A stretch of 44,210 nt of DNA from a virus. This document shows, in pieces, positions 1 through 28,968 of the stretch. The translations under genes and the position numbers were made by a program. The stretch lies in IMG/VR virus record IMGVR_UViG_3300009164_000134, positions 1 through 44,210 of that record. One strand, given 5' to 3'. Numbering within the stretch: position 1 is the first letter of the stretch; each line of letters opens with the position of its first letter. The notes below the pieces were generated by a model. It had not been told where the DNA came from and did no database searches. It saw only the letters and a list, made by a program, of their open reading frames with translations.

Positions 1-3000
1 CTTGTTTCTTTAACAGAATCCGCATCGTCAGAGCGTGAGCCAGGAAGAGGGGAATCGTGTCTGGTTACTGCGTAGTTGTCTGCAAAGGTTTTAAGCTTTC
101 TTGAAGCACCTTTACGCCATGCAGCATCATCAGTGCCCGATGCTATCGATGTAGCCATCGAATCAAGGACTTCAACGGTTCCTTTTTGCTCGGCAATTTC
201 TATGCGAATAGTTCCGTCAGCTTCTCTTCCAACAATTCTAATTTTTCCTGGAGGCATAACGACAGTTTGGTCTCCACTATCTCCAATATTGGGAAATATT
301 CCCCTGTCTTTTGCTTTAGCAACAATAACTACGCGCTGTTTTACTTTTCCTGTTTCTTCATTTATCTTGGTAGCTTCATCAATAACAGTTTTTTTCTGAC
401 CTTTAGAAATCACTCGGCCACTTAATAGTCCGTCGTTTTCTATCTCCCTACCTATGGAAACTCCCGTGAAAATAGTAGGGTCAAATTCCATTACTGTTTC
501 TATATCTAGCTGCTCTCCAAGTGAGGAAACTTCCATTGCCTCAAGTGTGGGAACTAGTATGTTTTTGATTTGGTCATCGAAAGAAGCTTCACTACTAGAT
601 TTATCATCTATTGGAAGTGCAAGACGTTTTAATCGAGCATTTTTTCTGTTTGCAGCCCTACCTACGGATATTTGCTTAGATGGCTCTAGCGCACCAGCTA
701 ACCCATCAGTATCGAATGTGCCCATCTCTTTAACGGCATCAGATTGTTCTTTTGTTATTTTTCTACGGAGCCGTGCTCTTTGCTTTTTACCCATATCTCG
801 AGCTTCGGTAGCTGATGCTACTTTCCGTGATGCTCGTGGCTTAGGCGAAAGTACAGTTTCAACTTTCCCATCAAGCTCCATCAGGATTTGCGCAGTGGTT
901 CTCTTATCGCCGGCGTCTTTTATAGATTTTGCATACTGGTTTCTGAGAAGGTCAAGTTCCTCTGCTTTATCCATGAGGTCTTTGTCTAGTGCTGCAATAT
1001 CGACAACAGTTAATTCACCATCTGGAACGGTTTCTACGTCGGCTGGAACATAGGAAGCAATTGAATTTTCTATATCTTTAATCAGTAATGAATGGTCAGC
1101 TATCTTGCGAACTAATTCTTTTTCTGACATCGAAGAAGCAAGTCCCTTTAGGTCATCAAGAGCTGCGGCCCTAGAAGCGGCCTCTATCTCTTCTGGAGCA
1201 TAAAGACCGTGAGCATCTCTAACTTCTTTTACTCTCTCTTCAAATCTAGCCAACTCAGTTTTTGAACCAACGCCATGTTCTTTTCGCCATATTTTTTTGG
1301 CGTCTTCATACATTTTGTCGTAAAATTCAAATTCTTTTTGTGCAGAATCAAAAGCGGGAGAAGTTATGTCATCTATAGAATCCATTTTTGCTGAAGCATT
1401 ATCACGCTGTGCTGCAACTAGTGCTGCGTTGTTTATCATGTCTTCTTCTGGGAGCTCCTTAAAAGCTTCACTGAAAGACTTAAGGGCTGCGCGTCGTTCT
1501 TCTGAGGTTCTTTCTCCAACTGAAATCAACTCTTCCGCCATGTCTTCCGCGGGCATATCCGGAACAGCGTCTCCAGATACGTCTGGAATAAAATCTCCAC
1601 CAGCATCACCGCTTGGAATAATTGAAGAAACTATGGCTCTATCTTCAGCTGCCGCCCTCATGGAGACATTGTCCATCCATTCAAGTGCTGCATCAATATC
1701 TTCGCCGTAAATTATTCCCTGTTCACGAAGCGCCCAAAGCTCTGCGCATACTTCTAGGGCCCAGTGCTCTCCGCCTTTTCTGTACACATCCCCTGGGTAG
1801 CTACCAGCAAGAGCTGATACAACTTCAATTCTGCTTAATGCTCCATTAAGTGCTTCAATGTTTATATCATCAGCAACATCTATCATGATGTTGGGCCAGT
1901 CGTAGCTCGTTATCTGAGTAAAATCAGTAACAGTTCTGTATCTCCCCGTAAACATTCCCGTTTTTTTGTCATATTCCGGAATGCGGATTGAACCACCAGC
2001 CATTAGTTCTGCTTTAATATGGTCCATAAATGCTTGGTACTGAAGTGTGTGAGAAATTTCGTGGAATATCTGCTGGCGCATGTACGATTTTTCGCCATCA
2101 ATCAAACCGGCCATACCTCGTGCCGTGTGGTCGGCGTTGACGAGGAAATCTGCAACTGTTGCCCGTGCTTCAGCGTCAGTAGAGGCTCCAACTGCAGCTA
2201 CCGAAAGTCTTTGATTTGGGCGCAACGATGGAAGTAGTGACTCTTGCCCAGACATGCTGTTGTGCATGTTTAGGGAGATTATGTATTTTCCACCTACGTA
2301 CCTTGTACTCATTTCGTCAGTGCTCGAGTTGTCATACTCCATGACGTTTGTGCGGCGCATCGTTGTTGGGGATTTTACATACTGGTCCAGAAGTCCCTCT
2401 AGGACTGCGCGCTCAGTGCTGTAGTACCTAGATACGTCTGCTTTTAAAACAATATCTTGTTCTTCTTTAGTTAAGTCTCTCCATCCTTTTACGGACTGTA
2501 GTCTTGCTTGGCAAAACTGCTCAACTTCAACCGGAGTAAGCATTGCTCCATCGGCTCCACCACGCTGATGAACGAGCCTTATGTCCCAACCAAGAGAGGG
2601 GTCAGAAGCCGCTAAAGCGCGAAGCGCATCAAACCCCTGCTTAAGGTCTTCATTTGTTGCTCGTGCAGTTTCACTTCTATCAACGCCGAGAGAATCAAGT
2701 ATCGATGAAACACGGGCATCTGTTTGTAACATTCTGTCCTGTGCTCTTATTGCGCCATTCTTAAACCATCTCTGGTTTTCTGGCATCTCAATACTTCGCC
2801 AGTCAGGCGTGTCTACGCGTTCTCCAGTTATGGAGTCGTACCAGACAGTTCTTCCGAGTTTTGCCAAATAAGAAGGGCTCGGTATTTCGCCAGGAACCCT
2901 GTCTGCCATTGGGTCGTATCTTTGGGAGCTCCAGTTGCCGTTAAATACCCCATCAAAGAAACGTTGAGCAGTGGTTCTGGTCCCCTGTAGTTTCCCGTCA

Positions 3001-3821
3001 GCGGTGGCTGTTTGCGCCATTCTTGCAGCAAATCTACCGAACTTAGACGGACTAAAGCCAAAACAGTTTGTCCCATACATGTCCGTAAACTGATTTGCGG
3101 CCGGCGTCCCTGGAGGGCATCTGAACTTATTTAGCTCGTCTTTTATTACTCCAAATGCGGCAGCCGCACGTGAAGCCAGGTTTCCCCCGGGAATACTGGA
3201 GCCTATTCTTTCCCCAGGAAGAATCTTTACTTCGGGGTCGAGCTTGTTTCCTGTTTCGCGACGCTTTTCTCCAACTGTTAATCCAGAAGTTATTGAGAAC
3301 GGGTTGACTACTCGTCCAGACTCTGGGACAATATCGTCAGTACGTGGATTGACATCGTATACGGTTAGTTCTACGGATGGTTTTTTTATTATCTGATTTA
3401 GTTCGTCTTGAAAAGAACTTGACTTTGGCTCTTTATCAGCAAGCCAGCCAAAGTTTGGTTTTTCTTCCAAGCCATGAATACTTGAGTATGAAGGAAAAAG
3501 TTGAAGGTGTTTTCCTTCTTCCCATGTCTCGTCTGGCATGAATCTTTCGCCAGTAGGAAGAGATTCCATCCCAGGAATTGACCCGCCGCGCATGTCGCGC
3601 TTTTTGCCATCAGTATTATCTTTGTCTACGCCTCCACCAAGAGGAGTTCCATCAAGTGCTTTGATAGATATATCTGCGTATAGACGCTCAGTAGCAGAAC
3701 TTATTGCAATTGATTTTCTGAACGAGACAGCAGTCTTGTTTATGTCTTTACAGCAAGACGTAGGCACTATTAAGCGCGCAGATAATATTACTCGTTCACG
3801 GACTATTGAATCACCCGTCAT
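1..3821 (-). CDS. Giant virion-associated or cargo protein with zincin motif, cut by the left edge
   Basis: The minus-strand frame is open from an ATG at 3821 to the window edge without a stop, so at least 1273 residues are present and the C-terminus is missing. The start is supported by an AAAGG ribosome binding site about ten bases upstream, and it lies 14 bases after the stop of the preceding gene. Residues 587-591 read HEISH, a zinc-metallopeptidase HExxH motif, and a plausible third ligand, Glu694, sits in a CAELWA stretch. Around residues 210-235 is a two-cysteine motif (RCPPGTPAANQF, then TNCFGFSPS). The second half is rich in charged helices. The position after the protease polyprotein and the 566-residue protein places it in the head block. 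A role as a packaged effector or internal virion protein is inferred; no family name is certain. Confidence 0.75.
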   Translation of the reverse strand, partial: MTGDSIVRERVILSARLIVPTSCCKDINKTAVSFRKSIAISSATERLYADISIKALDGTPLGGGVDKDNTDGKKRDMRGGSIPGMESLPTGERFMPDETWEEGKHLQLFPSYSSIHGLEEKPNFGWLADKEPKSSSFQDELNQIIKKPSVELTVYDVNPRTDDIVPESGRVVNPFSITSGLTVGEKRRETGNKLDPEVKILPGERIGSSIPGGNLASRAAAAFGVIKDELNKFRCPPGTPAANQFTDMYGTNCFGFSPSKFGRFAARMAQTATADGKLQGTRTTAQRFFDGVFNGNWSSQRYDPMADRVPGEIPSPSYLAKLGRTVWYDSITGERVDTPDWRSIEMPENQRWFKNGAIRAQDRMLQTDARVSSILDSLGVDRSETARATNEDLKQGFDALRALAASDPSLGWDIRLVHQRGGADGAMLTPVEVEQFCQARLQSVKGWRDLTKEEQDIVLKADVSRYYSTERAVLEGLLDQYVKSPTTMRRTNVMEYDNSSTDEMSTRYVGGKYIISLNMHNSMSGQESLLPSLRPNQRLSVAAVGASTDAEARATVADFLVNADHTARGMAGLIDGEKSYMRQQIFHEISHTLQYQAFMDHIKAELMAGGSIRIPEYDKKTGMFTGRYRTVTDFTQITSYDWPNIMIDVADDINIEALNGALSRIEVVSALAGSYPGDVYRKGGEHWALEVCAELWALREQGIIYGEDIDAALEWMDNVSMRAAAEDRAIVSSIIPSGDAGGDFIPDVSGDAVPDMPAEDMAEELISVGERTSEERRAALKSFSEAFKELPEEDMINNAALVAAQRDNASAKMDSIDDITSPAFDSAQKEFEFYDKMYEDAKKIWRKEHGVGSKTELARFEERVKEVRDAHGLYAPEEIEAASRAAALDDLKGLASSMSEKELVRKIADHSLLIKDIENSIASYVPADVETVPDGELTVVDIAALDKDLMDKAEELDLLRNQYAKSIKDAGDKRTTAQILMELDGKVETVLSPKPRASRKVASATEARDMGKKQRARLRRKITKEQSDAVKEMGTFDTDGLAGALEPSKQISVGRAANRKNARLKRLALPIDDKSSSEASFDDQIKNILVPTLEAMEVSSLGEQLDIETVMEFDPTIFTGVSIGREIENDGLLSGRVISKGQKKTVIDEATKINEETGKVKQRVVIVAKAKDRGIFPNIGDSGDQTVVMPPGKIRIVGREADGTIRIEIAEQKGTVEVLDSMATSIASGTDDAAWRKGASRKLKTFADNYAVTRHDSPLPGSRSDDADSVKET

Positions 3822-5662: not shown

Positions 5663-8600
5663 CTAAACAGCTGTTGAATCAGAAATTACTCTCGTTCCAT
5701 TTTTGTTTTTACCGTAAAGAGTTTTTCCATCTTTTTCTATACGCTCTCGCGCTGTACGAAGTTGTTCCGCACTGAAAATGTCATCTATGGAATAATTTGT
5801 TCCAAAAACTTCATTGAATCTATTTACAACACCCTGAAGCTCATTTGTTGAATATCGAGGGCTGTCGCCCTTCTTCGGAGAAAAAACTGGACCACGTGTA
5901 GCAGCCAGTTTAGGCAGCTCAGTATGTATGTCTTTTTTACCGATTATTGAATGAACAGTCTCTCTATTGGCTTTTGACTTTTCCACGCCACTCTTTTGAA
6001 TGAATTCATTTAGGGCTTCGTACACAGCATGCTTGGAACGACTCAGCTCGGAATCAAGCTGTTGACCAGCTTTCCCTTCCGTCCAAATAGAAGAAGCATC
6101 AGGTATTACTCCCTTGCGAATCATTTCATCGATATAAGCGACGGGAACGCCTTTCTTTTCCCATTCAGCAGCATCACGCCTACTTCCAAGACCAACATTC
6201 TGACTACCAAAACTTTCAGCAATCACTTGACGGAGTTTTTCGTGCCAGTTATCGTTTTTGCTAATACCGAGGTGCTCCAGAAGGGGCTCTATTTTGAAAT
6301 CCTGTCTAGATGTCTTGTCGGTTGCTATCTGCTCAGCAGTGACTGTTCCTGATGGAGTTAAGGATGCCCCAGACATTCCTTCCAGCATTAAATTATGTTC
6401 TGCTTCCGAGTCGCCATCAGTAGCACTATTCTTCTGGAATCGGCCCATTGCCTGAAACTTGGCAACAGGACTAACTTCCCCAAGAGAAGCGTATTCATCT
6501 GGCGTTATTGATTGTTGTTCTTCTTGGTCAAACCAGTGAGGGAATGCGTCTTTACCAAAAGTCTCAACAATGAATCGGTCTCGCATGCTGGCTCGGCCTA
6601 TATTCTCGGCAAATACTTCTTCAGCGTTCCACTTTTTCTGCTTTGCTTCCGCCGAATCTACTGGGGCAAAAAGCCTCCATGCTCCGAATTCTTTTTGCTT
6701 GCCGGTTTCGGCCAACATGTACCTGACTGCGTCATGGTTAATAGCTGCGCCATCTTTTTCCAACAACGCAGCGTCTCTTCTGCCAAGACCAAGCATGCTT
6801 GCTAACTCGGCATTGGTGATTGGACGAGTCTGTGAATGGAAAGACTCAGACAGTGAACCACTATCGGTATAATCCCTAGTCCACTCTGTCGGAACACGAA
6901 TGGCATCCTTGAGCTTGGATACTGGGAGCATCCATGTCTCAGCTGAAGGCTCTTGATTGCCACCATTTTGAGATATGTTTCCAATCTTAATTGATGGGCG
7001 CTCGCGCATTCTTTCAGAAATAGCATTAAGCGCATTATTCAGTGCTTTTTGTTTCTGGGCAGGGTCTGTTGAGTCGGAGTCAATATCAAGTGCTATGCCA
7101 TTATCTCTAAAGCCCTTCCATATGCTCATTGATGTTTTTGTGATTGCTCTATTAGTGCCACTATTTTTTGTAACGCTAGAGAACCCAGCAAGCTCTATGG
7201 GGTGCGCTAAACGTCGGGTGTCGCCTTCTGCACCAGACATGTCCTCGCCGGCATTACCGACCGTACGAATACGCCTGGAGAGACGTCCACCAGCATTTGA
7301 TGAAGCTGCACCACTGCTTAGTTTGGCAACGCTTCCTGAATCGCTTTCAGGGAAGTCATTAATCCAGTCTAGTGAACCAAGTTCAAGCTGTTCTTCTGCT
7401 CTTGTAACGGCAACATAAGAAAGTCGGAGTTCCTGCTCGTCAGGCATAATCCATGTTTTCTTCTCTTTGTCCCACTTTGGTTTTCTAAAGTCTGACCAAA
7501 TTTTTACTCTTGGAGACTCAAGACCCTTAGAGGTATGTGCTGTTTGAATATGCACGTAGTCGTCGCGATTTTCTGGCAGTTTTTTCTTGTCGGTAATAAT
7601 CTTGCTGAGTGCTTCACGCAAGTCTGCAACAGAGTTCTCTGCAAGCAGCTTATTAAGCATGTTTAATCTGTTGTTATCCCCGTCCTCTATGGCTTTTTTG
7701 AATTCTTCCATAGTAGTAATTCCGTCAAGGTCTTGACTTGGAGGTGGAGGAGTCTTGACTTCTTTGCCAAATTCGTTGATGTAGAAAGGGTTGCCTTTTG
7801 CTTTGTTTTCCATCCAGTCAATGTTTTGGATAAAATTTTCTAAGTCTTTCTTAAAGTTCTTACTTCCATATACAGCGCCGCCCTTGCTGAAAACATCCAT
7901 AGTTGCCGCAATGGCTCCACCGTTTGCACGAGTAAGAATCATTGTTGGTTTATCTATAGTTGTAATTACTCCATCTACAGGATTACCTGACTTGTCTGCT
8001 TTCTTTCCGGTCATGCGTTCTTTTGCACCAAGAAGCGATAGGAACTGGTTTCCTACTCCAGCAATTACTTTTCCAAATCTATAAGAATCTGTAATTGGCA
8101 TGTCATATACGGATTTTGCATCATCTAAAGTTTTTCCATCAGCCCCTCGCCAGGCGTTGATGGCCTGATTGGTATCGCCAATGTAAATTTTTTGAATATC
8201 GCCAGAGTTTGCCAGCATCTTTGCAAACACAGGGTTCATATCCTGTGCCTCGTCAACCATGGCTATATTGGCTCCGGCTATTTTCCCAATGTCTGGGTCG
8301 GTTAGTGCCCATATTTTTGTTAAATGAGCGTTGTTCGTTGGCAACATTCCCTTTTTGCCATCACGTGCAGTATTAATGTCTTCCCACATTTTCTTGGCAT
8401 ATCCGACCAACTCGGGAAGTATTTTTTCATCTTTCACTGCTAATGAACCATTGAAGGCACCGGTAAAGTGCTGAGGGCCAACTTCCTTATCATCACTGAT
8501 TACGAAAGCATCAATTGCCTTCTGTACTCTCTTGTAAACATCTATGGCACTGAGTTCATCTGCTTCAGAAACCATACCCTTTATACCGAGATATGCGGCT

Positions 8601-11600
8601 CTATCTTTGTAAGACTTGATTGGGTCTATCCAGTTGACAGCATCAGCCTCGTAGCTTTTATCAGTCAAGTTTCTATTAATTGCCTTCATGGCATTGTAGG
8701 AAAGACTGTCCATAGTTCTAATCTGGAAGAAATCTGGAGAGATGCCTTCTTTGGCTATTCTCTTTGTTACGTCGTCTTTGGCGTTAACGTTAAATACTAA
8801 ATAAGCAATTCTTGCTTCCGGTTCTGATTTCTGCAGTCTCTTAGCAAAGTTAATAACTGTTGTTGTTTTACCCGTTGCCGCTAAAGCTCTAACCTTTACG
8901 TCTGCTCCAGTCATCATTGCGTCTATAGCAACATCTTGTTCAGGGTTAGGTTTTCTGTTGGCAGGGAGGTCTGGGTAGTCGTATTTCTCAACGTCTTTTA
9001 TGTCAATTATTTTTCTAGGTTTTCTAGAGAATGGAGCACTTGGTGTACTTGGCGCACCTGGGGCATTCGGGGTGGAAGGCTTGGATGGAGTAGCGTCACC
9101 ATTTGGCCATACGGTTTTGCCGTTTTCAACGGTAGGCCAGCCATAAACCATGTTACGAAGCGTGTCCCACTGTGACTGACTAAGGACTCCATTTTTACTC
9201 TTATGCTGAGAAAGAACACTAGGTAAGAAACTTTCTTCAAAACCCTTTTTGGGAGTTTTTGCTGCGGCAGCTTCTATTAGTTTTTTCTGCTCTTCTGGAT
9301 TTGGCATGTCTCCTGGTGGATTTTTGCCAGAAGACAGGCTTTGCGGAGCAGTTACTGTTGGTGTAAATGTTGATGCTTTAGGAGCTCCACCACCGTACGG
9401 ATTCCAGTGTCCGTTTGGCCTTTGTTGTTCTGGTCCGAGTTTTGTTGGACCATTGGCAATGCCGTCAATACCGGTGTTTCTGGCTGGGTCGAATATCCAA
9501 TCGAGGCCTGGACCGGGGTCAAAACCTAATTTTGCACGAGTAAGTGCAACATACAGAAGATGTGCTTCTTCTCTTGGCAACCTATTGTTAACCTCACCAG
9601 CATCTTTCTGTGCTTGAGTGAGTGCAATCCCCATGTCACGAGCATTGGACCTTCCCCAGTCATCACCCATCATGACGTAGTCGGCTTCAAGGCCTTTTAC
9701 CCCGTGTCCGGTAATTACTTCAATATCAACGCCTTCAGTGTCGTTTACGTGGTCTGTGAGGTATCTTCCAAGTTCTGAAACAATAGAAGCACTTTCTTCT
9801 AGGGTGTCACCGGAGACAACCCACCCATCGCCAGGCGGGCGCTGCGCCTTCCCGTCTAAAGCAACACTCTTCTCATGGTAGGATATTTTCCCTTCCATTT
9901 TGTGGTCTTTAATCCATTTTTGAAGTGCAAGTCTGCTTGGCCCGAGCGCAGTAGCTTTTGTGGCTGAGCCGTTCGCGGCCGTGTATGACTTTACTCCGTC
10001 AACTCCGTTACCGGTTATGAGAATACTCTTCCCGTCCCATTTGCCTGATGCCGTAACGCCAGGACCAAGCCACGAACCAGAGTCGGTAAATAATGGTCTC
10101 CAGTAAACCCTATTAATATCTGCGTCACCATTAAGAGATGCTGGAATAATTATGTTTGGCTCAAGGCCGCCCATTATCCACGGGCCATTAGCACCAGCAC
10201 CAGATTTCTTGGGATTGAGTGCTCCCTGTATTTTTACAGCTTCAATATCAATTTGTTCAAATGGGTCTATGTCTACCCTTTCTTGAACTGGAATAATTTT
10301 TCTCTTAGAATAGTCAAATTCACCTTTTACTGAGTCCCACATGCCCTCTAAGGCTTCTACGTAATCCATGGCGCTCATGTTGGCTTGCATTATCGCCCCG
10401 GTTTGTGGGTCTCTATATGTAGCCCGTGTTCCGTCTGGGTTCATTTTAGGCAAATCAAGAAGCCTCATCAACGAGAGCGCGTCAGCATTAGCTTTACCGT
10501 CGATAGAAAGTATTCTCTTGACGTCTTGAATACTTGCAGCGTCCATCACTTTTCCACCAAGAAGCTTTGACTCCACTGGTCTTGCAAGTTTTTTGCCAGA
10601 GTTAATCCAATTCAGAACCTTCATTGCGGCAAGCATTTTAGAGTGTCTTTCCTCCGGCATGCCAAGCGTCTTACCAAGTCGCGTGCTTATTTCTATACCT
10701 TGAGAAATCATTCCCGCATTGGTCCTGAATATAACCATGTTTTTGCCAGGACGGTCAAATTTGTAGTCTCTAAGTATTTCTCCGTCAGCCTGAGCAGCAA
10801 GAGCCTGCATGGCATCGGTTAATAATTTGTCTCTATCTTTTTCATTAAGTGAGGGAAGCGCGGAAAGACTTACAATGTTTTCATCTAGACGATTGTTTCT
10901 TTTTTGTATGTCGACCCATCGAGCGTCGTACTTCTTGGCAAGTTTTTGAAATTTTTTAGTAAGTTCATCTTTGGATAGTCCAGCAATACTGAAGTCGGCT
11001 TCGACTACACCAGCAGCTCTACCAAACAATTGGTAATCGGAAGCTTCTGGGTCTACGCCATCGTTTCTGTCCTCGATATTCAGCATGTTAAGAATCGAGT
11101 TACCTAAGTATGCTTGTAATCTTCCGTATCTAAAAGAGTCACGAAGGGTTAGTTCAAATGTTGGTTTTACTTGAGCAAAAGTATCTGATGAACCTCTAAA
11201 CCCAAAGATTGACTGACGTGGGTCACCAACCATCATTATGCTGACGCCTTTTTCGGCATTGTCGGCAATTACTTGCTGAACTACCTGGTTAGTGTCTTGT
11301 GCCTCGTCGAACATGAACAGGCTCAACGGTTTGTCTTTTGTTCCAAACTGGCGGTACCACGTTGCACCTGTCTTGTTGTGTGTAACAATGCCTGTCTTGC
11401 CTTTGACGGCTCTTGTTCCGGATGGGGTGGCTTTTGGAAAACCCTGCTGGTCCCTGCTGGCGTGACCAATCAAACCTGGGTCTGTTGATAGGTCAGGCTT
11501 GGTTAATGCCCACATTTTTACTTGATGGTCAAAAGTTGGAAGAACGTTTGAATTATCGTCCGTAATGTCTTTCCACATCTGTTCCAACTGCTTAACCCAA

Positions 11601-14600
11601 GCATCTGGAACAGGCTGGGTCCACACGCGGTCTACTACAGGACTTAGGGTGGTGCTGCCTCCATTTAGAACCATGTTCTGTATGTCAAAAGCAGAATGTT
11701 CAAAGTGTTTTGCACTTATGGTCTCGTCGCCGCTTATGCAGAACCTGCTAAGAGCATTGTTGAGGATTGCTCCGTATTGAAGTGCGCTTATTTGCGTGGC
11801 ATCAAACATCTGACTACCCAAGGGAAGTGCGCCACCATTGTTGCTTCCGCCATATTTGATTTCGTCTAATTTGTATTTTTCGACAACAGCTTTAGAGCCC
11901 TCTATTTTGTCAAAAGCGGTATACCCAAGCGTTCTGTACCCAACAGACTTAACACCTACTAAATCCACAGTAGTTCCATCAAATCTTGTGATGGTTTTTT
12001 TAACGGTTGCCTGTTTATGGGTTTTACCCCAGTACGAATTGCCTCCGCCACTTGCACCAATTGAAACTTTTTCGGCAGTTTTTGGGCCGAACATTTTATT
12101 TCCGGTGCCAAACTTGAGTGACCAATACGCCAATTGATTAATTGTTGAAGAACCAGTATTTTCTGGCATTCTTCCGTTTGCTTCTTGCGCGTTTTTTCTG
12201 GCAAAAGTAATGTAATAAACTCCTGCTTCTGGGTCTTCTAGTTGAACAGCTTTAGAGACTGCTTCCAGGGTTGTCGTTTTGCCAGTTCCGGCACCCGCTC
12301 TTACTGCAGCTATCCCACCCGGTTGCTCCAAGAAATGAACTCCGGTGTCAATGATTGCAACTTGTTCTTCAGTTGGCGTGTAGTTGAGGCCTAGGCGCTC
12401 GCGAGCGCTTTCCGCGTCGCTTCTCTTGACTATTCTCTTATCGTCAAACTTGCTTACAATCGGCTTCAGGTCAGCGCCGCTGCTTAGCTTACGATAAGAC
12501 TGGTCGTATCTATTGCCGTCTTTGTCTTTAATTAAGAATCCAGGGATTCCTGCAAGGTCTTCTCCAAAGAGTCCTGATGACATTGCACCAACAACGCCTC
12601 TTCTCTTTCCTCCTGCAGGAACTCTAAATGGAGCCTGTGGAGAAAGTGGTTTTTTCTCGCCTTTCTTTGGTGGGCCGAGCTTGACTGTAACGTTTCTGGC
12701 AGTGTTTGTTCCAGGAACCGTGAAGGTAAAGTCTTGACGACCTTTTCTTTCGTCGTCTCTTTTACCAGCAAGTCTACGAAGCGTTGGCGACTTGTTCATC
12801 ATGTAGTCGATGGCCTGCTGTGCCTGTGTTAACGCATCTTGAAGTGCGTTTGGGTTATCGCGAATGGCTTGCATCCAGCCGGAAACGTACTGAGCGTGGT
12901 CTTCTCTGACTGTCGGCTCAAGGCCAAGGATTCCCATGGCGAAAGCGCTACCAATTTCAGCAATTAGTTCTTCAAATGCGTACCTAGATTTAGATTCGGC
13001 TCCAGCTCCTCGCATTCTTCCTGTTTGGTCTCTATTGAGGCGAGATGGGTGGCCGGTCCAGTGGGTTGTTTCGTGAAGCAGTGTTGAGTAGAAACCTATT
13101 GGGTCCTTAAAAGAAGAGAACGTGGGCATTGTAATAGAGTCATTGGAAGGTGAATAAAATGCTCGGCCTTGTTTTGCCTCTTTCCAATCCGGTCCTATTT
13201 CTGAAATAACGTCTTCAATGTCTTTCATTCTCTTCGCTGCGTCAAGTTCGTCATGCGAGATTGGTTTATAGAACTCCTCCGGCAAGCCTTTTACTTCAGC
13301 AACGTTAATAACTTCAGTAATGTGAAACGTTCCTGTTGGGCGACCGTTGTATAAAGTTGGTGCAATTATCTGTACGAGCTTATTCTCATATCCCGGTTCT
13401 AGTTCTCCGCCAGCTTTCTTCCATTGAGCCACCCCAGCCCAACGTGGAATCTCGTACCCACGATGCGATGCAACCTGCATGAGAAGGAATTGGTTTGTTC
13501 CTTCATATGTTCTTTTGGTATTTGGATTAGTAGCAAAAAACATTGCTCTTCTCCAAGGAAATTCCCATGTTGAATTAGGGTCATTTTGTACTTTTTCAAG
13601 AGAAGCTAAAAAGTCTTTAGCCATCAAGTCGTACATTTCCTTAAGGGAACTTTCATCTAGTTCTTGACCTGATGAAAGTTTTGCTAGCGGACCATCGTAC
13701 TTAAATCTGTCTTCGTCAGACCTGTTCTTGGGACTTGTTTTGAGATAAAACTTATAGTCGTTAGAAAGGTCTTTTCCAGGAATGCTGAATTTCTTATCTG
13801 GATTTGGTGATTTAGGAGCTGAAATTTTTGCTACAGAGTCGCCGACTTCGTTCTCTAGTTTTTGAACTGGTTTTTTAGCACTCGGAACACGGTCTTTTGG
13901 CTTGACGTCGGGGGCCCCAATAGGCTTCAATGCGTTCTGGATTCCTATGAAACGAGGATTGGTTGAACCTTCGTCTACCCAGCCGTCATTGTCGGGGTCA
14001 AAGGTACTGAATGTGGGTTTTCTGTATCCGCGAACGCCACCAGTAGGGATGTCGATATCCGTGCTTCTATTTCTACGGTTGTCGCCAAGATGACGGTCAC
14101 CAAGGGTTGGTCTGTCTATGAGACGAGAACCAATCGCCCTTCCTAAACGAAAGCCTGCGGCCTTTGTTTCGGGGTCAAACTCAATTAAAGATTTTTTTTT
14201 TAGGTTATTGAGTGCAGTGTCTACTGCATCTATGAGTTCCAGGGTTACTCCGGATGTGAGAACGATGCCTTCCGTATCAACAAAAGACTCAACTCTGTGA
14301 TAATCAAAAATTGGGTCAAGAGCTTGTTTTACTTTAAATGCATGCTCTACGACTACCGGAATGTAATACGGCTTATCATCGTATGAATCACCGAGACTAA
14401 ACTCGGCGAGGCTTTTGTACTTGCGACGGGAGAGGAATTTATTCTCAATTGCCCCACGGAGTGAAACAACAGCCAAATCTTCTGGGTACTTAACTTCTAT
14501 GTCTGTTAAATACTCGACTTCTGAATTGAGTTCATCTAGTCTGTACGACTTCATGACAGACGGACCGGCATTAACCACGCCAGGAGGAATTACGGCGAAT

Positions 14601-15772
14601 CGACACTTTCCTTCACTCTCAACAGCCATGTCAATAATCTTGCATTTTCCTTCACCTTGGAAGAATACGCAGTTTGAGCATTTGACGCCTATTCTAGCAA
14701 TTTCGTTTTCTATGGCCGGCGTATATCCAGCCCACACACCTTCGGAGTCTTCATTGAACTTTCCGTGGCGAGCTACAATCTTTAGCAAAGCGTCTCTAAG
14801 GTCCGCTTCTTCTTTATCGAGGTTTCCAGGAGTTTGCTGACCCATGTTGCTGTTGCCTGTATTCGCGTACTCAACTCGTGGAAGAGCAATAACAGCCATT
14901 CCCTCGCTAGTTGGCTTAAACGCCATCGGTACCGATGCTGCTGGTGGGCGCATGGGAACCGTTGGAGCCTGAACTCGTGGAGTCGGCATAGACATTGGCA
15001 TAGCCATTGGGGCACCGAACATGAAGCGGCCGTTGTTGTGCATGAATGGGCACTTGTACTTTTCATTTTGACCGTTTTCGCCTACATGTCCATACATGAC
15101 ATGATTATCTGCAACGTCAGTCACGGAAACTTTTTTGCCGAGCATCATCGAGAGTTGCTTCTCTAGTTCCTCTACGTCCATACCATCAGTAACAGGAGTA
15201 CCCATCTGTGGGTTCTCCATGATTGCAGACTGACCGTCAGACTTGACAGAGATGGTCCCCGTGAGTTGGTTTGCGCCATGCAATACAGGGCTTACTTCAT
15301 AGAGTTCAAGCTCGTAAATAACGTTTGCTTGAGCCTTTTGGTCATACTGAGCGCGGAGGGTTTTGTAGCCAATTGACCACTCCTGCTCTTGACCAAAGAA
15401 GGCTACGTTTGAGAACGCCTCTTTGCCTTTTTCTGAAAAAAGATTGAACTGAACGCGAGCAAAAAGTCCACCAATACCAGCCATCTTCATTTTCATTGGA
15501 AGACGATTGTCGGTTGGCGGTACTTCGTAAATTTCTAGAACCTTACCGATAGGGTCGTTCCAGTTATGTCCCCAAACAACACGCGGCTTTCTGCGCATAA
15601 GGCTCTTGGTAAATGCTCCAGTTGCACAAATGTCACCAACAGAGTCTCTATTACCAATGCCTGCCACAAAGCACTCAACGATTCCCTGCGCTTCATCTAG
15701 GTTTAGCGAGCCATTTGCTGCTGCTGTAGAACCTAGTGATGCTGCTTTGTATTCAAACATTTCTAAAGGCAT
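5663..15772 (-). CDS. Prohead protease polyprotein: HK97-type protease, ArdC/zincin, two SF1 helicases, C-terminal module
   Basis: One uninterrupted 3369-residue frame; the usual family length is about 200 residues. Residues 1-190 are an HK97-type (S78/U35) prohead protease with catalytic His69 (VVWGHNW) and Ser133 (EWSIGYK). A four-Cys segment (SNCVFF, GEGKCKI, EGKCRF) lies near 375-400 and a DPDNDGWVDEG acidic loop near 595. Residues 705-830 match the ArdC N-terminal ssDNA-binding domain, followed by a zincin with HETTH at 900-904. Helicase 1 has Walker A Lys1165, DEAQD 1489-1493, GDPRQSIFGFRG and motif VI VALTRAK near 2070. Helicase 2 has GKTTT with Lys2302, DEAQD 2507-2511, HTSKGLE near 2742 and AVTRAEE near 2787. 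Both resemble UvrD/FBH1. LSSG motifs at 699, 1096, 2146 and 2818 separate the modules. The C-terminal module has two related GLGxRRDAA segments near 2993 and 3192. Start: the first ATG, after AAGAAG. Cleavage into packaged parts is inferred. Confidence 0.92.
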   Translation of the reverse strand: MPLEMFEYKAASLGSTAAANGSLNLDEAQGIVECFVAGIGNRDSVGDICATGAFTKSLMRRKPRVVWGHNWNDPIGKVLEIYEVPPTDNRLPMKMKMAGIGGLFARVQFNLFSEKGKEAFSNVAFFGQEQEWSIGYKTLRAQYDQKAQANVIYELELYEVSPVLHGANQLTGTISVKSDGQSAIMENPQMGTPVTDGMDVEELEKQLSMMLGKKVSVTDVADNHVMYGHVGENGQNEKYKCPFMHNNGRFMFGAPMAMPMSMPTPRVQAPTVPMRPPAASVPMAFKPTSEGMAVIALPRVEYANTGNSNMGQQTPGNLDKEEADLRDALLKIVARHGKFNEDSEGVWAGYTPAIENEIARIGVKCSNCVFFQGEGKCKIIDMAVESEGKCRFAVIPPGVVNAGPSVMKSYRLDELNSEVEYLTDIEVKYPEDLAVVSLRGAIENKFLSRRKYKSLAEFSLGDSYDDKPYYIPVVVEHAFKVKQALDPIFDYHRVESFVDTEGIVLTSGVTLELIDAVDTALNNLKKKSLIEFDPETKAAGFRLGRAIGSRLIDRPTLGDRHLGDNRRNRSTDIDIPTGGVRGYRKPTFSTFDPDNDGWVDEGSTNPRFIGIQNALKPIGAPDVKPKDRVPSAKKPVQKLENEVGDSVAKISAPKSPNPDKKFSIPGKDLSNDYKFYLKTSPKNRSDEDRFKYDGPLAKLSSGQELDESSLKEMYDLMAKDFLASLEKVQNDPNSTWEFPWRRAMFFATNPNTKRTYEGTNQFLLMQVASHRGYEIPRWAGVAQWKKAGGELEPGYENKLVQIIAPTLYNGRPTGTFHITEVINVAEVKGLPEEFYKPISHDELDAAKRMKDIEDVISEIGPDWKEAKQGRAFYSPSNDSITMPTFSSFKDPIGFYSTLLHETTHWTGHPSRLNRDQTGRMRGAGAESKSRYAFEELIAEIGSAFAMGILGLEPTVREDHAQYVSGWMQAIRDNPNALQDALTQAQQAIDYMMNKSPTLRRLAGKRDDERKGRQDFTFTVPGTNTARNVTVKLGPPKKGEKKPLSPQAPFRVPAGGKRRGVVGAMSSGLFGEDLAGIPGFLIKDKDGNRYDQSYRKLSSGADLKPIVSKFDDKRIVKRSDAESARERLGLNYTPTEEQVAIIDTGVHFLEQPGGIAAVRAGAGTGKTTTLEAVSKAVQLEDPEAGVYYITFARKNAQEANGRMPENTGSSTINQLAYWSLKFGTGNKMFGPKTAEKVSIGASGGGNSYWGKTHKQATVKKTITRFDGTTVDLVGVKSVGYRTLGYTAFDKIEGSKAVVEKYKLDEIKYGGSNNGGALPLGSQMFDATQISALQYGAILNNALSRFCISGDETISAKHFEHSAFDIQNMVLNGGSTTLSPVVDRVWTQPVPDAWVKQLEQMWKDITDDNSNVLPTFDHQVKMWALTKPDLSTDPGLIGHASRDQQGFPKATPSGTRAVKGKTGIVTHNKTGATWYRQFGTKDKPLSLFMFDEAQDTNQVVQQVIADNAEKGVSIMMVGDPRQSIFGFRGSSDTFAQVKPTFELTLRDSFRYGRLQAYLGNSILNMLNIEDRNDGVDPEASDYQLFGRAAGVVEADFSIAGLSKDELTKKFQKLAKKYDARWVDIQKRNNRLDENIVSLSALPSLNEKDRDKLLTDAMQALAAQADGEILRDYKFDRPGKNMVIFRTNAGMISQGIEISTRLGKTLGMPEERHSKMLAAMKVLNWINSGKKLARPVESKLLGGKVMDAASIQDVKRILSIDGKANADALSLMRLLDLPKMNPDGTRATYRDPQTGAIMQANMSAMDYVEALEGMWDSVKGEFDYSKRKIIPVQERVDIDPFEQIDIEAVKIQGALNPKKSGAGANGPWIMGGLEPNIIIPASLNGDADINRVYWRPLFTDSGSWLGPGVTASGKWDGKSILITGNGVDGVKSYTAANGSATKATALGPSRLALQKWIKDHKMEGKISYHEKSVALDGKAQRPPGDGWVVSGDTLEESASIVSELGRYLTDHVNDTEGVDIEVITGHGVKGLEADYVMMGDDWGRSNARDMGIALTQAQKDAGEVNNRLPREEAHLLYVALTRAKLGFDPGPGLDWIFDPARNTGIDGIANGPTKLGPEQQRPNGHWNPYGGGAPKASTFTPTVTAPQSLSSGKNPPGDMPNPEEQKKLIEAAAAKTPKKGFEESFLPSVLSQHKSKNGVLSQSQWDTLRNMVYGWPTVENGKTVWPNGDATPSKPSTPNAPGAPSTPSAPFSRKPRKIIDIKDVEKYDYPDLPANRKPNPEQDVAIDAMMTGADVKVRALAATGKTTTVINFAKRLQKSEPEARIAYLVFNVNAKDDVTKRIAKEGISPDFFQIRTMDSLSYNAMKAINRNLTDKSYEADAVNWIDPIKSYKDRAAYLGIKGMVSEADELSAIDVYKRVQKAIDAFVISDDKEVGPQHFTGAFNGSLAVKDEKILPELVGYAKKMWEDINTARDGKKGMLPTNNAHLTKIWALTDPDIGKIAGANIAMVDEAQDMNPVFAKMLANSGDIQKIYIGDTNQAINAWRGADGKTLDDAKSVYDMPITDSYRFGKVIAGVGNQFLSLLGAKERMTGKKADKSGNPVDGVITTIDKPTMILTRANGGAIAATMDVFSKGGAVYGSKNFKKDLENFIQNIDWMENKAKGNPFYINEFGKEVKTPPPPSQDLDGITTMEEFKKAIEDGDNNRLNMLNKLLAENSVADLREALSKIITDKKKLPENRDDYVHIQTAHTSKGLESPRVKIWSDFRKPKWDKEKKTWIMPDEQELRLSYVAVTRAEEQLELGSLDWINDFPESDSGSVAKLSSGAASSNAGGRLSRRIRTVGNAGEDMSGAEGDTRRLAHPIELAGFSSVTKNSGTNRAITKTSMSIWKGFRDNGIALDIDSDSTDPAQKQKALNNALNAISERMRERPSIKIGNISQNGGNQEPSAETWMLPVSKLKDAIRVPTEWTRDYTDSGSLSESFHSQTRPITNAELASMLGLGRRDAALLEKDGAAINHDAVRYMLAETGKQKEFGAWRLFAPVDSAEAKQKKWNAEEVFAENIGRASMRDRFIVETFGKDAFPHWFDQEEQQSITPDEYASLGEVSPVAKFQAMGRFQKNSATDGDSEAEHNLMLEGMSGASLTPSGTVTAEQIATDKTSRQDFKIEPLLEHLGISKNDNWHEKLRQVIAESFGSQNVGLGSRRDAAEWEKKGVPVAYIDEMIRKGVIPDASSIWTEGKAGQQLDSELSRSKHAVYEALNEFIQKSGVEKSKANRETVHSIIGKKDIHTELPKLAATRGPVFSPKKGDSPRYSTNELQGVVNRFNEVFGTNYSIDDIFSAEQLRTARERIEKDGKTLYGKNKNGTRVISDSTAV
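14192..14201 (-). other. A10 homopolymer in the coding strand of the polyprotein gene, possible slippage site
   Basis: The coding strand reads CTA AAA AAA AAA TCT, giving Lys525-Lys527 within a ten-A run, so the ideal -1 heptamer A AAA AAA occurs in frame. A -1 shift or one extra A in the mRNA reads AAA ATC TTT AAT TGA and stops; loss of one A gives CTT TAA and also stops. Either slip would release a product of about 530 residues carrying the protease and Cys-rich parts but none of the ArdC or helicase modules. That the run is used is not shown by sequence alone. Confidence 0.4.
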
Positions 15773-15851: not shown

Positions 15852-15877
15852 AATATAAAGAAACAATATAAAGAAAC
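15852..15877 (-). repeat. Two tandem copies of a 13-bp AT-rich unit before the polyprotein gene
   Basis: The unit AATATAAAGAAAC occurs twice head to tail at 15852-15864 and 15865-15877, running into the stop of the portal gene. Read on the minus strand each copy gives TTTCTTTATATT, with a TATATT that could act as a -10 box for the polyprotein gene 80-100 bases downstream. No clear -35 is visible, so the repeat is certain but its role is not. The rest of the 104-base gap is AT-rich and holds no gene. Confidence 0.5.
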
Positions 15878-17940
15878 TAAGCTACTTGAGCAAAGTTCCA
15901 AACATCCCTTGCGCCTGTTTCGGCTATTTCAAACTGTTCTTTAGCAAAGAAGTTTGCATACATATCAATCAAACCCTCCCTGAAGGAGAGGAGGCGTCTA
16001 TCTTCTTCGGCAAACTCAAAAGACTTGAGCATTATGGAGTTGATGTCAGAGAAGAATACGTCATTAACCTTTTTGATTCTAAGCAAATGTGACTCAATAT
16101 TCTTGACAACGTCAAACGGCTGAAGAGTTTTAATCTTCATACCGTATTCGTTTGACTTCTCGCTTCTTAATTCGTATGAGTCATTAATAATTGCAGATAA
16201 TACGGGTTTAATGTCGTCATCAATCTGCTTATTCCATATATCTTTTGAGAGAATTGAATCTATGTCCAAAGTTCCAGACATAAGAGACTTTCTAGCCTTT
16301 GCCCCACTGGCCTTCTCAAGAACAACTCTTTGCTGTCTTTCGACAATACGTTCAATGCTTCTAGAAAGTATGTCCGTCCAGCGCTCAATTGCAGTCTCAG
16401 ACCTATCTTCGGCTGTCGTTTCGTCACTCTTTGTTTGAATCTGAGTGTTTGAGTCAGAAGCCGTAACCATCCCAGGCATCGCCTCAGGAGCAAGCGCTTC
16501 TGGCGGAACAGTGTCTTGAGGCATTCCTTCAACTTGTCCTGCTGCTGCAAGGGCTCCCTGCATCGTATTGGGGTCAAGTGGCGGTGTTGCCCCCACTGGA
16601 GGCATTCCTGGTACTGGGGGTATTCCTGGAGCGCCTGGTGGCATTCCTGGCATTCCTGGCATTCCTGGAGCGCCTGGAATCTGTGCCGTATTTGGTTCTT
16701 CCATCTTCTTCTTAGTATTGGCAATTGGAATGAGGTTGGGGTTCATCAAAAGGGAGTCAGCCAAATCGGCTTCTACTTCTTTTCGTGAAGAACCTATTCT
16801 GTATTCGTTGTTGCTAATTAGACCTGCTTGGAATTCCTGCATCAGGTAGCGGTCGCGCTCTTGCTTGTAGAGCATCAAAATTGGGACACCGGTGGTATCA
16901 AAGTCAACGTAGTTCTTATCATCTAGTTCATCCAAAGCACGGGCGATTGGCTCCAAATGCGGAAGCATTGTCTCCATCCAGAATACCCTGATTTCCTCAG
17001 CAGCGTTACTAAACGTACGTCCTGCAGCATTTCCTATTACCGACTCCGGAACACCAAAAGCAGCAAGTATTTCCTCTTTGGTAACTTGGCGCATCTGAAT
17101 ATAGGCAGCATCTCTTGGGCTAGCCGAAGTGTCAACGAAGTCAACACCATCATCGGCCGAAATAACGGTCGTATGGCCGGCGCGTGTTATGTTTCCACGG
17201 AATCGACTACGGAGCTCCTCCTTGTCTTCTTCATCAATTTCTCCACGAAGGACAAGCAATCCACCGGGACGACCATCATTAAGCAGGTAGTTGCGGTTGT
17301 AGAGCTTTGCCAAGTTCTCAATTTCTATCGCCACGCCAGATGCCTCAAGTGGAGTTAGGGACAGGTATGGGTCAAGAGGGTGCGGGCGACGAACCCAACA
17401 AACATCATCCGGCTTCATGATTACTTTTTGACCATTTGGCATGCTTACTTCGTAACCAGAAACAAAGGTCTTGGGGTCGGGAATTGGGGCAGTTGACTGA
17501 GGTGGGAGTAGGTTTAGTCCAATTATCCCACCATCACGACCACGCACTTTTTCGATAAAAGCACCCCGTGTACCAAGGAGAAGCTGAGCGGAAAGCCTGT
17601 ATCTAAAAATAAATGAGTTTTCCCCAACATTGGACTTGACGTTTAGGAGTTCCAGCAATGTTGAGCGGTTCGCCTCGCGGCCAACTATTATCTCACCCTT
17701 GCTGGAGTTGTCTTTGCGGAGTATGGCCGGTAGACGTGCCTGGTTTCCAGCGATAGCATCAATGCACCGGTTAACCCAGGTAATTTTTGACATGCCTTCG
17801 CGGTAAGCACGCTCGATATCCCACGAGTCCCTGTATGGCTTACCCTCAAAAGAGGGGTTATTTGAGATAGGTATTCCATACCCCAACCCCTTCGACCCCG
17901 ATGACTGAACTGATTTATTCTCTGACGAGTTCCATCCCAT
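15877..17940 (-). CDS. HK97-family portal protein
   Basis: A 687-residue portal, the dodecameric ring at the capsid vertex through which DNA is packaged and ejected. The N-terminal two thirds carry the usual features of HK97-type portals: an early segment around VNRCIDAIAGNQARLP, a PDDVCWVRRPHPLDPY stretch, PGGLLVLRG, and the clip/stem-like part with KEEILAAFGVPESVIG and an N-A-A-E-E-I motif. Residues about 417-460 form a Pro/Gly/Met-rich collagen-like linker (PGAPGMPGMPGMPPGAPG), followed by a charged helical C-terminal part of about 200 residues that ordinary portals lack. The gene lies between the small membrane protein (7 bp apart) and the protease polyprotein, as in other phage head modules. 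The start has no strong ribosome binding site and is probably coupled to the upstream gene. Confidence 0.93.
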   Translation of the reverse strand: MGWNSSENKSVQSSGSKGLGYGIPISNNPSFEGKPYRDSWDIERAYREGMSKITWVNRCIDAIAGNQARLPAILRKDNSSKGEIIVGREANRSTLLELLNVKSNVGENSFIFRYRLSAQLLLGTRGAFIEKVRGRDGGIIGLNLLPPQSTAPIPDPKTFVSGYEVSMPNGQKVIMKPDDVCWVRRPHPLDPYLSLTPLEASGVAIEIENLAKLYNRNYLLNDGRPGGLLVLRGEIDEEDKEELRSRFRGNITRAGHTTVISADDGVDFVDTSASPRDAAYIQMRQVTKEEILAAFGVPESVIGNAAGRTFSNAAEEIRVFWMETMLPHLEPIARALDELDDKNYVDFDTTGVPILMLYKQERDRYLMQEFQAGLISNNEYRIGSSRKEVEADLADSLLMNPNLIPIANTKKKMEEPNTAQIPGAPGMPGMPGMPPGAPGIPPVPGMPPVGATPPLDPNTMQGALAAAGQVEGMPQDTVPPEALAPEAMPGMVTASDSNTQIQTKSDETTAEDRSETAIERWTDILSRSIERIVERQQRVVLEKASGAKARKSLMSGTLDIDSILSKDIWNKQIDDDIKPVLSAIINDSYELRSEKSNEYGMKIKTLQPFDVVKNIESHLLRIKKVNDVFFSDINSIMLKSFEFAEEDRRLLSFREGLIDMYANFFAKEQFEIAETGARDVWNFAQVA

Positions 17941-23215: not shown

Positions 23216-23905
23216 CTAGTCGTTCCACCATGCTGTCCATGGCTTGGCTGAAGCAGATGCTCCATCCCCGTGGATACCAGTGTAAGCAACGGAGATTGTC
23301 ACTTTTGCGTCATCTTCGTAGCCTGTCCAGTCTCCGCCATCAGCGTAAACGAACATTTGGAGAATTTCGTCAGTGTTCATAATTGCAACATCAGTGAGGT
23401 AGGTATTTGCCTCCCACTCATTAAAGGTGTTCCAACTGTTGTTTATCGCACGGGCTTTATCAATAGGTGTTGCTGCTGTGCTTCGGATGTCAAGAGCACC
23501 GTTTCCCCAGTACTGCTGCGTCCCCCATGCCCCAACTCTTCCAGCAGCATCATCTGGGTTACCAAGCCACATTGTTGGCTTCAGTTCTTCATTGACATCG
23601 CCATCCCACGGAACATTTTCAAAGCCAAACACCCAATCTGATGGGTTGTCAATTGCGTTGTGCTGTGTCTTTGAGTTCTTTGACTTGATTGCCGCAAGGC
23701 GAAGTAGTCTTTCAGTTGACTCAATATCAACAGTTGTTTCGTCACCCTGCCAAAGACCTGCCGTTGGACCGTAAATCTGCTGCGTGGTAAACCAGATTGA
23801 CTCAATCTTCACACGGAACGGAAACGACACATTCAGATATGAAGGGTCGCCCTCTCTTACTGTCCAGTCGTAGTTGACAATTGATGGTGCGATAATTCCT
23901 GACAT
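23216..23905 (-). CDS. Paralogue B of a duplicated, probably abundant virion protein
   Basis: A 229-residue acidic, Trp/Asn/Gly-rich protein. It shares with the upstream gene product the N-terminus MSGII-x-PSI, the stretch SFPFRVKIESIWFT (residues 27-40), a W-x-G-(N/D)-PD motif in the middle (MWLGNPDD) and the C-terminal motif FVYADGGDW, all in the same order, so the two genes arose by tandem duplication. A strong AGGAG site precedes the ATG and the gap to the paralogue is 11 bp. No signal peptide or membrane segment is seen. No known family is recognised; a capsid decoration, head fibre or other virion surface role is inferred from the strong translation signals and the decoration-like protein upstream. 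Confidence 0.82.
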   Translation of the reverse strand: MSGIIAPSIVNYDWTVREGDPSYLNVSFPFRVKIESIWFTTQQIYGPTAGLWQGDETTVDIESTERLLRLAAIKSKNSKTQHNAIDNPSDWVFGFENVPWDGDVNEELKPTMWLGNPDDAAGRVGAWGTQQYWGNGALDIRSTAATPIDKARAINNSWNTFNEWEANTYLTDVAIMNTDEILQMFVYADGGDWTGYEDDAKVTISVAYTGIHGDGASASAKPWTAWWND

Positions 23906-23916: not shown

Positions 23917-24618
23917 TTAGTTGTTTCTTCCATCCCAGATACGGGTTGGATTAGAAATGTCTGAGCCGCCAATACCTGTGTATTGAACGAAGATTGATGC
24001 CAAGCCAGAGTTGTTGGTGTAGTCGCCCCAGTCACCACCGTCTTCGTAAACAAATAGCGATAGAACCTCATCTGGGTTCATGATTGACAAGTCGGTCTTG
24101 TACTTATTTGCCAGATACTCGGCATTGTCCCAGCCGTAGTTATTCCATTCTCCCATTACTTCCATGCTTGGAAGAGGGCGAGCGGTGCTGCGATACACGC
24201 TTCGCGTGTCTTGCCAGTTGTCGTACTGAACGACCTGTTCTGGAGTTTCTGGGTCGTTGTCATCAACATTGTCACGGTTGTCAGGGTCGCCGAACCAGAT
24301 GGAAGGCTTTGATTCGTACTGCAATCCAGCACCCCACTCGTTCCATAGGATGTTGTAGTCGGTCGGGTAATCATCGGTTGAATCAGGGCGAAGAGCGTTG
24401 CGCGTCTTGACACCACCAAGCCGCAACACGCGGTTGAGGTTCTTGGGGTTGTACCCGCCATCATTGTTGTCGCCGCGACCACTCAAAGCATCATCAGCAG
24501 TGAACCAGATTGACTCAATCTTAATTCGGAATGGAAACGAAAGGTTTACATACTTCTTGAAATATGTGTCTACTTCGTATTGCATGGTGAGGATTGACGG
24601 TGGAATAATTCCAGACAT
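23917..24618 (-). CDS. Paralogue A of a duplicated, probably abundant virion protein
   Basis: A 233-residue protein related to the next gene through SFPFRIKIESIWFT (residues 26-39), an SIWFGDPDN motif in the centre and FVYEDGGDWGDY near the C-terminus. The central region, with an Asp-rich tract (DNVDDNDPETPEQ), is the most divergent part, as expected if the copies now bind different partners. The ribosome binding site AGGAG is strong. A terminator lies immediately upstream, so this gene needs read-through or its own promoter; an AT-rich AATATTAACG stretch at 24635-24650 is the only candidate. Function unknown, virion component inferred. Confidence 0.82.
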   Translation of the reverse strand: MSGIIPPSILTMQYEVDTYFKKYVNLSFPFRIKIESIWFTADDALSGRGDNNDGGYNPKNLNRVLRLGGVKTRNALRPDSTDDYPTDYNILWNEWGAGLQYESKPSIWFGDPDNRDNVDDNDPETPEQVVQYDNWQDTRSVYRSTARPLPSMEVMGEWNNYGWDNAEYLANKYKTDLSIMNPDEVLSLFVYEDGGDWGDYTNNSGLASIFVQYTGIGGSDISNPTRIWDGRNN

Positions 24619-28411: not shown

Positions 28412-28968
28412 CAAAGCTAGATATCGAATACGTTGACCCAAGAACTTTAGTTATACCTGACTGGAGAGCTACGTATTTACTACGCCCAGAGATGCTTGTT
28501 GTCTCTGCTTCCCTCTCGCAATACGGGTTCATACAGCCAATCCATGTACGAACAAGCACTAGGGAAATTATAGACGGGTCAGAGCGAGTCCTTCTGGCTA
28601 TGAATATTAGACAGATACTTGACCATTCAGACGGTCTCGTCCCAGCCGTATTTCACGACTTAGACAAAATGGACGCAATGATGCTCCATTTGAGATTAAA
28701 CCGCGGACACACCCAGATGGTTGCCGCCAAAACCTCACAGATAATTAGAACAGTTAAACGTTCTGGCAAATACGGCAAAGACGATTTTGAAGCAATGTTA
28801 TGCATGAGAAGCGAAGAATTAGCCTTAATGCTTGACGGGACAATCTTCAAAGCTCGCAAAATCAAGGAACACAACTATGCAAGAGCATGGATTCCGATAG
28901 AAGCGCCATCTGGAAAAGAGAGCGGGGAAAGCGTAATTATTGAACGCCCCCCAAATGCTGACCGTTAG
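28408..28968 (+). CDS. ParB-like protein (second of two)
   Basis: A 186-residue protein with a compact ParB N-terminal domain: YVDPRTLVIPDWR, then LSQYGFIQPIHVRTS, then IDGSERVLLAM (residues 55-65). The last stretch corresponds to the G-E/H-R box, with Ser in place of His. A helical part with RLNRGHTQMVAAKTSQIIR follows, similar to the recognition-helix region of longer ParB proteins. It starts inside the stop of the PP-loop gene with a GAGGA site, so the two are translationally coupled. Together with the first ParB-like gene it brackets the PP-loop enzyme. Confidence 0.8.
   Translation: MTKLDIEYVDPRTLVIPDWRATYLLRPEMLVVSASLSQYGFIQPIHVRTSTREIIDGSERVLLAMNIRQILDHSDGLVPAVFHDLDKMDAMMLHLRLNRGHTQMVAAKTSQIIRTVKRSGKYGKDDFEAMLCMRSEELALMLDGTIFKARKIKEHNYARAWIPIEAPSGKESGESVIIERPPNADR

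Follow-up and report, generated by a model that had tools for sequence, protein, structure and literature searches.

The window, by which we mean the whole 44,210-nucleotide stretch of viral DNA analysed here, carries on its minus strand a giant ORF of 3369 residues which starts with ATG, ends at a single terminal stop and, judging from both the ORF listing and the translation, has zero internal stops. The same phage is also represented by a 158,714-bp contig (G001), in which the ORF differs at one residue (191). The polyprotein gene is found in a virion/late-gene setting, with the portal protein encoded next upstream and the capsid gene present in the same contig. The features of the window considered here are:

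15877..17940, minus: portal protein, the gene next upstream (PF04860, E 6.5e-50)
5663..15772, stop codon included, minus: polyprotein ORF, 3369 aa
15248..15682, minus: Peptidase_S78 (PF04586) domain, residues 31-175, with His69 and Ser133 (Pfam E 3e-8)
14192..14201, minus: A10 run (T10 on the plus strand), residues 524-527, candidate slippage site
14181..14187, minus: nearby stops in both alternative frames, TAA at 14187-14185 (one A lost) and TGA at 14183-14181 (one A gained)
13922..14152, minus: tag preceding the first motif (residues 541-617), also present in a second giant polyprotein
13667..13681, minus: motif KLSSG, residues 698-702
12833..13639, minus: ArdC-N (ArdcN), residues 712-797, and zincin (MPTase-PolyVal), residues 852-980, with HETTH at 900 (Pfam and fold match)
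12572..12586, minus: motif-like AMSSG, residues 1063-1067, no K/R preceding
12476..12490, minus: motif KLSSG, residues 1095-1099
9335..12484, minus: SF1 helicase 1 module, residues 1097-2146 (Pfam match ~1146-2081)
9326..9340, minus: motif SLSSG, residues 2145-2149
7319..9334, minus: SF1 (UvrD-type) helicase 2 module, residues 2147-2818 (Pfam match ~2276-2796)
7310..7324, minus: motif KLSSG, residues 2817-2821
5666..7318, minus: C-terminal module, residues 2819-3369, conserved in relatives
3..3821, minus: polyprotein of 2645 aa, truncated at the window end after its first 1273 aa

Domains of the 3369-aa protein were placed with Pfam and PHROGs. Residues 31-175 combine the S78 profile with the conserved catalytic His and Ser of the family, His69 and Ser133 being at least 97% identical across 38 homologues, whereas ArdcN, MPTase-PolyVal and the UvrD helicase 2 were matched at E values of 9e-13, 6e-35 and 6.5e-27, respectively. 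The catalytic motifs listed in the original prediction, namely, His69, Ser133, HETTH, Walker A, DEAQD and motif VI, were all found as described, with HETTH at 900, TGKTT at 1163 and 2300, DEAQD at 1489 and 2507, and VALTRA/VAVTRA at 2075 and 2787. The one-frame fusion that it had announced, without giving the strand, is likewise borne out: the S78 prohead protease, the ArdC-zincin and the two SF1 helicases are genuinely joined in one uninterrupted ORF. In fold searches, the model of the ArdC-zincin region matched ArdC of R388 and the solved ArdC structures 6i89/6sna (E 5e-14 to 4e-11, TM by target 0.71-0.75); ArdC-N, zincin, HExxH and the ArdC fold are all present in this region, whose anti-restriction activity is putative. 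The model of helicase 2 matched FBH1 first and UvrD/Rep-type helicases next, which would be compatible with work on DNA ends or filaments. The C-terminal module has neither a Pfam nor a PHROG match, and a fold search with a model of helicase 2 plus this module (mean pLDDT 61.9) listed no matches other than helicases at E <= 0.001.

Three scans of IMG/VR yielded at least 103 loci, several of them sharing contigs (one scan kept 80 of 145 relatives). We defined as complete those ORFs of at least 2500 aa that had an S78 match, with rows identical in the first 560 aa removed. The resulting 27 polyproteins include several near-copies, and one, from the 11-kb contig L002, which matches the window's protein to about residue 2971, then diverges and stops at 2981 near the contig end, belongs to the window's own phage, its end being shortened; the phage is counted once. 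The ArdC-zincin is present in all 27, its zincin residues being invariant in a 16-row alignment, and some match was obtained for helicase 1 in 23, for the C-terminal module in 22 and for helicase 2 in 21, with the reservation that the helicase queries cross-match and some matches of the C-terminal module are near 20% identity. The order of the modules varies, with helicase 2 located before ArdC in one relative (L007) and after it in another (L009). Because ArdC-zincin is found in 27 of 27 polyproteins and module order differs, the fusion is a conserved and shuffled architecture. The cargo of other family members includes matches to sigma-70 region 4 and WYL, and three distant giants (L020, L021, L023) match the helicase queries but contain no xSSG at all. 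A scan of species genomes for a host gave 30 pattern matches and no relative.

The tetrapeptide LSSG occurs 4 times in the 3369-aa protein, in each case at one of the four domain joints, against 0.094 occurrences expected from 2000 shuffles. The cuts at 700, 1097, 2147 and 2819 by which the domains had originally been delimited coincide with the LSSG at 699, 1096, 2146 and 2818. Because the motif was first spotted by eye in this protein, it was then tested in other genomes. When 4-mers seen at least 4 times in ORFs of at least 1500 aa were ranked in ten related genomes (two near-whole, eight partial), the top-ranked 4-mer was LSSG in eight and FSSG in the remaining two (G002 and G008); the ten genomes are relatives and their rows related, so that the sites are not independent and P values are not literal. 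Among 203 distinct motif contexts, K or R precedes the motif in 132 and R or K follows it in 114. Among the 157 ORFs listed for G001 (46,340 aa), the 22 occurrences of [LFM]SSG are all confined to four giant ones, with 11 in an ORF of 4250 aa, 5 in that of 3369 aa, 4 in that of 2645 aa and 2 in the tape measure protein. Almost every one of these motifs has its own coding (21 of 22 distinct), and selection therefore acts on the peptide. A DNA-level repeat or recombination site was considered as the cause of the motif and rejected, as the codons vary within each of the ten genomes.

The placement of the motif was also assessed across relatives. Of 316 motifs in 33 polyproteins, 12 fall within the interiors of aligned domains, compared with 134 expected. 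For helicase 2, a motif is located at most 9 aa from the start and at most 11 aa from the end in 10 of 10 nearly full-module alignments, six partial rows being cross-matches and the row of the window's phage being left out as too long. In the structure models holding the motifs, both of middling quality, the motifs at 1096 and 2818 fall in stretches with pLDDT below 50, and that at 699 lies in a confidently modelled loop rather than a disordered linker. Repeated [LFM]SSG was absent from the long frames of cultured relatives (L148-L151), including most of the Gilgamesh giant ORF, as well as from the giant ORF of DSL-LC01. Taken as a peptide signal, [LFM]SSG, often after K or R, separates modules and is a candidate processing site.

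A segment of about 75 aa preceding the first motif, the tag (541-617), has a counterpart near the start of the 4250-aa ORF (residues 31-100); when G001 was searched with a tag profile, no protein beyond these two was found at E <= 0.001. A viral scan for the tag gave 67 loci, reduced to 34 non-redundant rows, of which 14 are in S78 ORFs and 20 are N-terminal in ORFs without an S78 match. In 27 of the 34 rows, an [LFMIV]SSG comes no more than 150 aa after the tag; in six of the other seven, the next motif comes 198-221 aa further on, and the available piece of L157 has none. In the FSSG genome G008, the tag-bearing second polyprotein likewise has FSSG beside the tag. We consider this segment, from its recurrence and position, a candidate capsid-targeting segment. 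It lies N-terminally in the 4250-aa ORF and internally in the 3369-aa ORF; a capsid-targeting propeptide would be a terminal segment common to packaged proteins, with a cleavage site after it.

Between protease and tag lies the A10 run, at which, by translation, A9 would yield a product of 528 aa and A11 one of 530 aa in the window's phage. The 91 S78 ORFs contain 29 distinct run contexts, comprising 26 in-frame A10/A11 runs, two A9 runs (L066 and L092) and one unrelated run (L069). In the two contigs with A9, the gene is split at that one place between protease and tag, as a real variant or through a homopolymer error. In all 26 in-frame contexts, the loss of one A leads to a stop 0-2 codons past the run and the gain of one A to a stop in 3-4, compared with a control in which both kinds of stop are found at 3.5% of 91,862 codon positions in S78 ORFs. 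When the joint was located by protein pattern, KKK was encoded as AAA AAA AAA after xTA in 23 of 23 distinct cases, a 24th, in L069, being an unrelated run elsewhere that was set aside; Lys is encoded by AAA just 48% of the time in S78 polyprotein ORFs, a background drawn from sequences chosen by the run and used for that purpose only.

The run is not universal: 13 of the 91 S78 ORFs lack any run of at least 8. When the site was searched for solely by protein homology, 43 non-redundant segments were obtained, 33 of which have a run of 9-11 (A9 in 2, A10 in 17, A11 in 14), none a run of 7-8, and 10 at most A6, one of the latter (L065) being cut by a contig end. In a tree of 26 S78 rows, the run is present in 19 and in both large clades, with three changes needed. 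Given that run-less fused lineages exist, slippage would not be essential everywhere. Ribosomal frameshifting is less favoured than transcriptional slippage, as no simple Shine-Dalgarno match was seen in 24 upstream stretches; the mean z of downstream structure is -0.75 relative to mononucleotide shuffles. We infer that the amount of cargo chain is probably set by the slippery A-run.

The sequences themselves show that the fusion exists and is conserved, and where the motif, the tag and the A-run are placed. On this basis, we propose that the gene serves a tailed phage as its 'Gag-Pol', in which the N-terminal ~528 residues would constitute the prohead protease and a head-associated region. 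At the A10 run, RNA polymerase would slip on a fraction of transcripts; slipped transcripts would stop within a few codons to give a short protease of 528-530 aa, and unslipped ones would give the 3369-aa fusion. The fusion and the second, tag-bearing giant polyprotein would then enter the prohead core via the protease region and/or the tag. Cleavage of the chain at [K/R][L/F/M]SSG, for which the S78 protease is the likeliest enzyme, would release the ArdC-zincin, the two helicases and the C-terminal protein inside the head, and these would pass into the host together with the DNA, to shield or process it. For the scheme as a whole, from slippage ratio through packaging and cutting at the motif to injection, we see an even chance of its being right. 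The original prediction had taken the fusion to the protease as the packaging route and expected cut products; both ideas gain indirect support from a repeated boundary motif, a tag that precedes the first motif and is shared with a second giant, and a conserved slippage-type joint. The injection of the products, and their action on RecA filaments, DNA ends or host defence proteins, which that prediction also put forward, are conjectural. The motif, the tag, the A10 run and the genome's two other motif-bearing polyproteins had escaped it.

The cutter would be either S78 or zincin, and in our main proposal S78 is the most likely. SSG is absent from 10 of 10 capsid proteins, although S78 is expected to cut them; in all 10, IKSIG is preceded by QL[ST]S or HLSS, the capsid protein of the FSSG genome G002 keeping QLSSR, and the capsid protein as a substrate of the same motif was abandoned as unsupported. 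A serious contender, although an unlikely one, is cleavage of the packaged polyprotein at [LFM]SSG by the embedded zincins rather than by S78, either inside the head or once injected. HExxH is carried by every one of the 27 complete S78 polyproteins, and by 21 of the 22 ORFs in which the motif occurs twice or more, so that the zincins are as well placed as S78; the invariance of the zincin residues and the lack of the motif in capsid proteins point the same way, as does the processing role suggested for the zincins of polyvalent proteins by Iyer et al. 2017 (PMC5512222). By contrast, packaged proteins of T4 and SPN3US are cut by the prohead protease (PMC9026906, PMC10052503), and ArdC and TraC1, with such a domain, are transferred full length (PMC5512222). 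The motif might alternatively stay uncut, serving as a docking peptide or linker that binds each module to the prohead core, with the chain carried, and acting, whole. The motif is indeed very short and seen solely as a boundary mark, and the N4 virion RNA polymerase, of polyvalent type, is packaged uncut (PMC5512222); nevertheless, a strict peptide kept at module ends across module orders, with L-to-F changes in two lineages, looks more like enzyme recognition, and we consider an uncut chain quite improbable.

Other explanations concern the joint. The A-run could be kept for some other reason, with the close stops merely guarding against slippage and a single product being made, and the several fused lineages without a run would fit this reading; yet one synonymous AAG would remove the run, which nonetheless persists in every KKK at the joint in spite of the mixed use of Lys codons, rendering this reading improbable. 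Far less credible still is an artificial fusion, in which a homopolymer error in sequencing or assembly would have joined two genes. Indel errors are common at homopolymers, the joint is a 10-base one, and L066 and L092 split there; against this, 26 contexts are in frame and two are split, and, because fused homologues without a long A-run at the joint exist, an error of this kind, which would have undone the original prediction, is unlikely. The scheme of slippage, packaging and cutting, most likely by S78, is our preferred reading.

Polyvalent proteins, prohead-protease maturation and slippage are each already known, and the system described here can be compared with several precedents, as far as the available parts of the cited papers go. 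Polyvalent proteins (PMC5512222) share with it many unrelated domains per chain, ArdC-N with zincin, helicases and a phage late-gene setting, and their injection and processing have been proposed (Iyer et al. 2017, PMC5512222). However, their assemblin-like peptidases are described as always C-terminal, whereas S78 is N-terminal (31-175) here, and a boundary motif, shared tag or slippage site is not named in the available part of that paper. The dnaX gene of Thermus thermophilus (PMC5009743) has a long product in one frame, a homopolymer of about nine and stops near in the other two frames, and the joint studied here has the same anatomy: its homopolymer reaches nine or more, a single ORF holds the long frame and stops lie close by in both others; it differs in being a phage protease-cargo fusion with 10-11 As, for which slippage is proposed from sequence. 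In retroviral Gag-Pol, recoding sets the ratio of virion part to enzyme fusion, aiding packaging before cutting, and fusing enzymes to capsid parts is a way of packaging them (PMC5009743). The two systems are unrelated: ours is that of a DNA phage, the long frame would be the default and slippage would shorten it, and the protease would be on both products. Packaged proteins whose propeptides are removed by the prohead protease at a short motif are described for T4 (internal proteins with capsid-targeting sequences, PMC9026906) and SPN3US (ejection proteins, PMC10052503), but they are encoded by separate genes and cut at L/I-X-E or A-X-E sites, as opposed to one chain with an SSG motif. The Dar proteins of P1 (PMC9024508) are packaged anti-restriction proteins, DarB having a capsid localisation signal; these again are products of separate genes, and processing of DarA is believed to occur, its site not having been found according to that paper. 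The nearest S78 domains among those compared (37-43% identity) are from Brevibacterium phage Cantare, Gordonia phages Gray and GMA6, and Streptomyces phage Gilgamesh, and the nearest capsid proteins among the matches listed (45-48%) are from Cantare and Gordonia phages. In Cantare, Gray, GMA6 and Gilgamesh, by contrast, the protease is a separate gene of ~420-640 aa, and nearby long frames lack repeated [LFM]SSG.

In the open-access literature subset that we searched, there was no account of the motif or of slippage in a prohead protease gene, nor a description of one system in which a protease at the N-terminus is combined with a motif at module boundaries, a tag shared between proteins and a slippage-type site. 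The loading and release of injected enzymes have been worked out in few phages. Tentatively, and with somewhat less than an even chance of being correct, we suggest that a strategy of the Gag-Pol kind has evolved in a tailed DNA phage: programmed slippage of RNA polymerase would set the ratio of head protease to protease-cargo polyprotein, a shared tag would load this polyprotein and a second giant one into the prohead, and cutting at a single motif would free a shuffled set of invasion enzymes, the arsenals being swapped as motif-bounded cassettes. If this is true, one short motif would allow giant phage polyproteins to be parsed into injected parts, with many unannotated counter-defence candidates among them; the programmed ratio of protease to cargo would be a convergent DNA-virus counterpart of Gag-Pol; and the tag would become a possible label for addressing proteins to phage heads.

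Several other genes deserve mention. The 4250-aa ORF (L119 with L118; G001 79462-92211, minus), with its 11 [LFM]SSG and tag, has two HExxH as well as exonuclease and ParB C-terminal-domain matches, most of its modules being without a good family match. The later part of the 2645-aa polyprotein, seen in the 158.7-kb contig, has three LSSG and one FSSG. The tape measure protein (34955-39844) has one KLSSG at residues 575-579, with a probability of ~0.45% by shuffling; it may be processed too, or the match may be due to chance. A second homopolymer, A9, is located at 41566-41574 (plus), near the start of a 590-aa tail-region ORF (41351-43123). By eye, the ORF at 27278-28411 (plus) is PAPS-reductase-like and lies between ParB-like ORFs at 26145-27017 and 28408-28968 (plus), perhaps forming a DNA modification set. 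Finally, within a plus-strand region, the minus-strand segment 22502-24618 includes two adjacent ORFs, 23216-23905 and 23917-24618, which start alike (MSGII.PSI) and appear, also by eye, duplicate-like.
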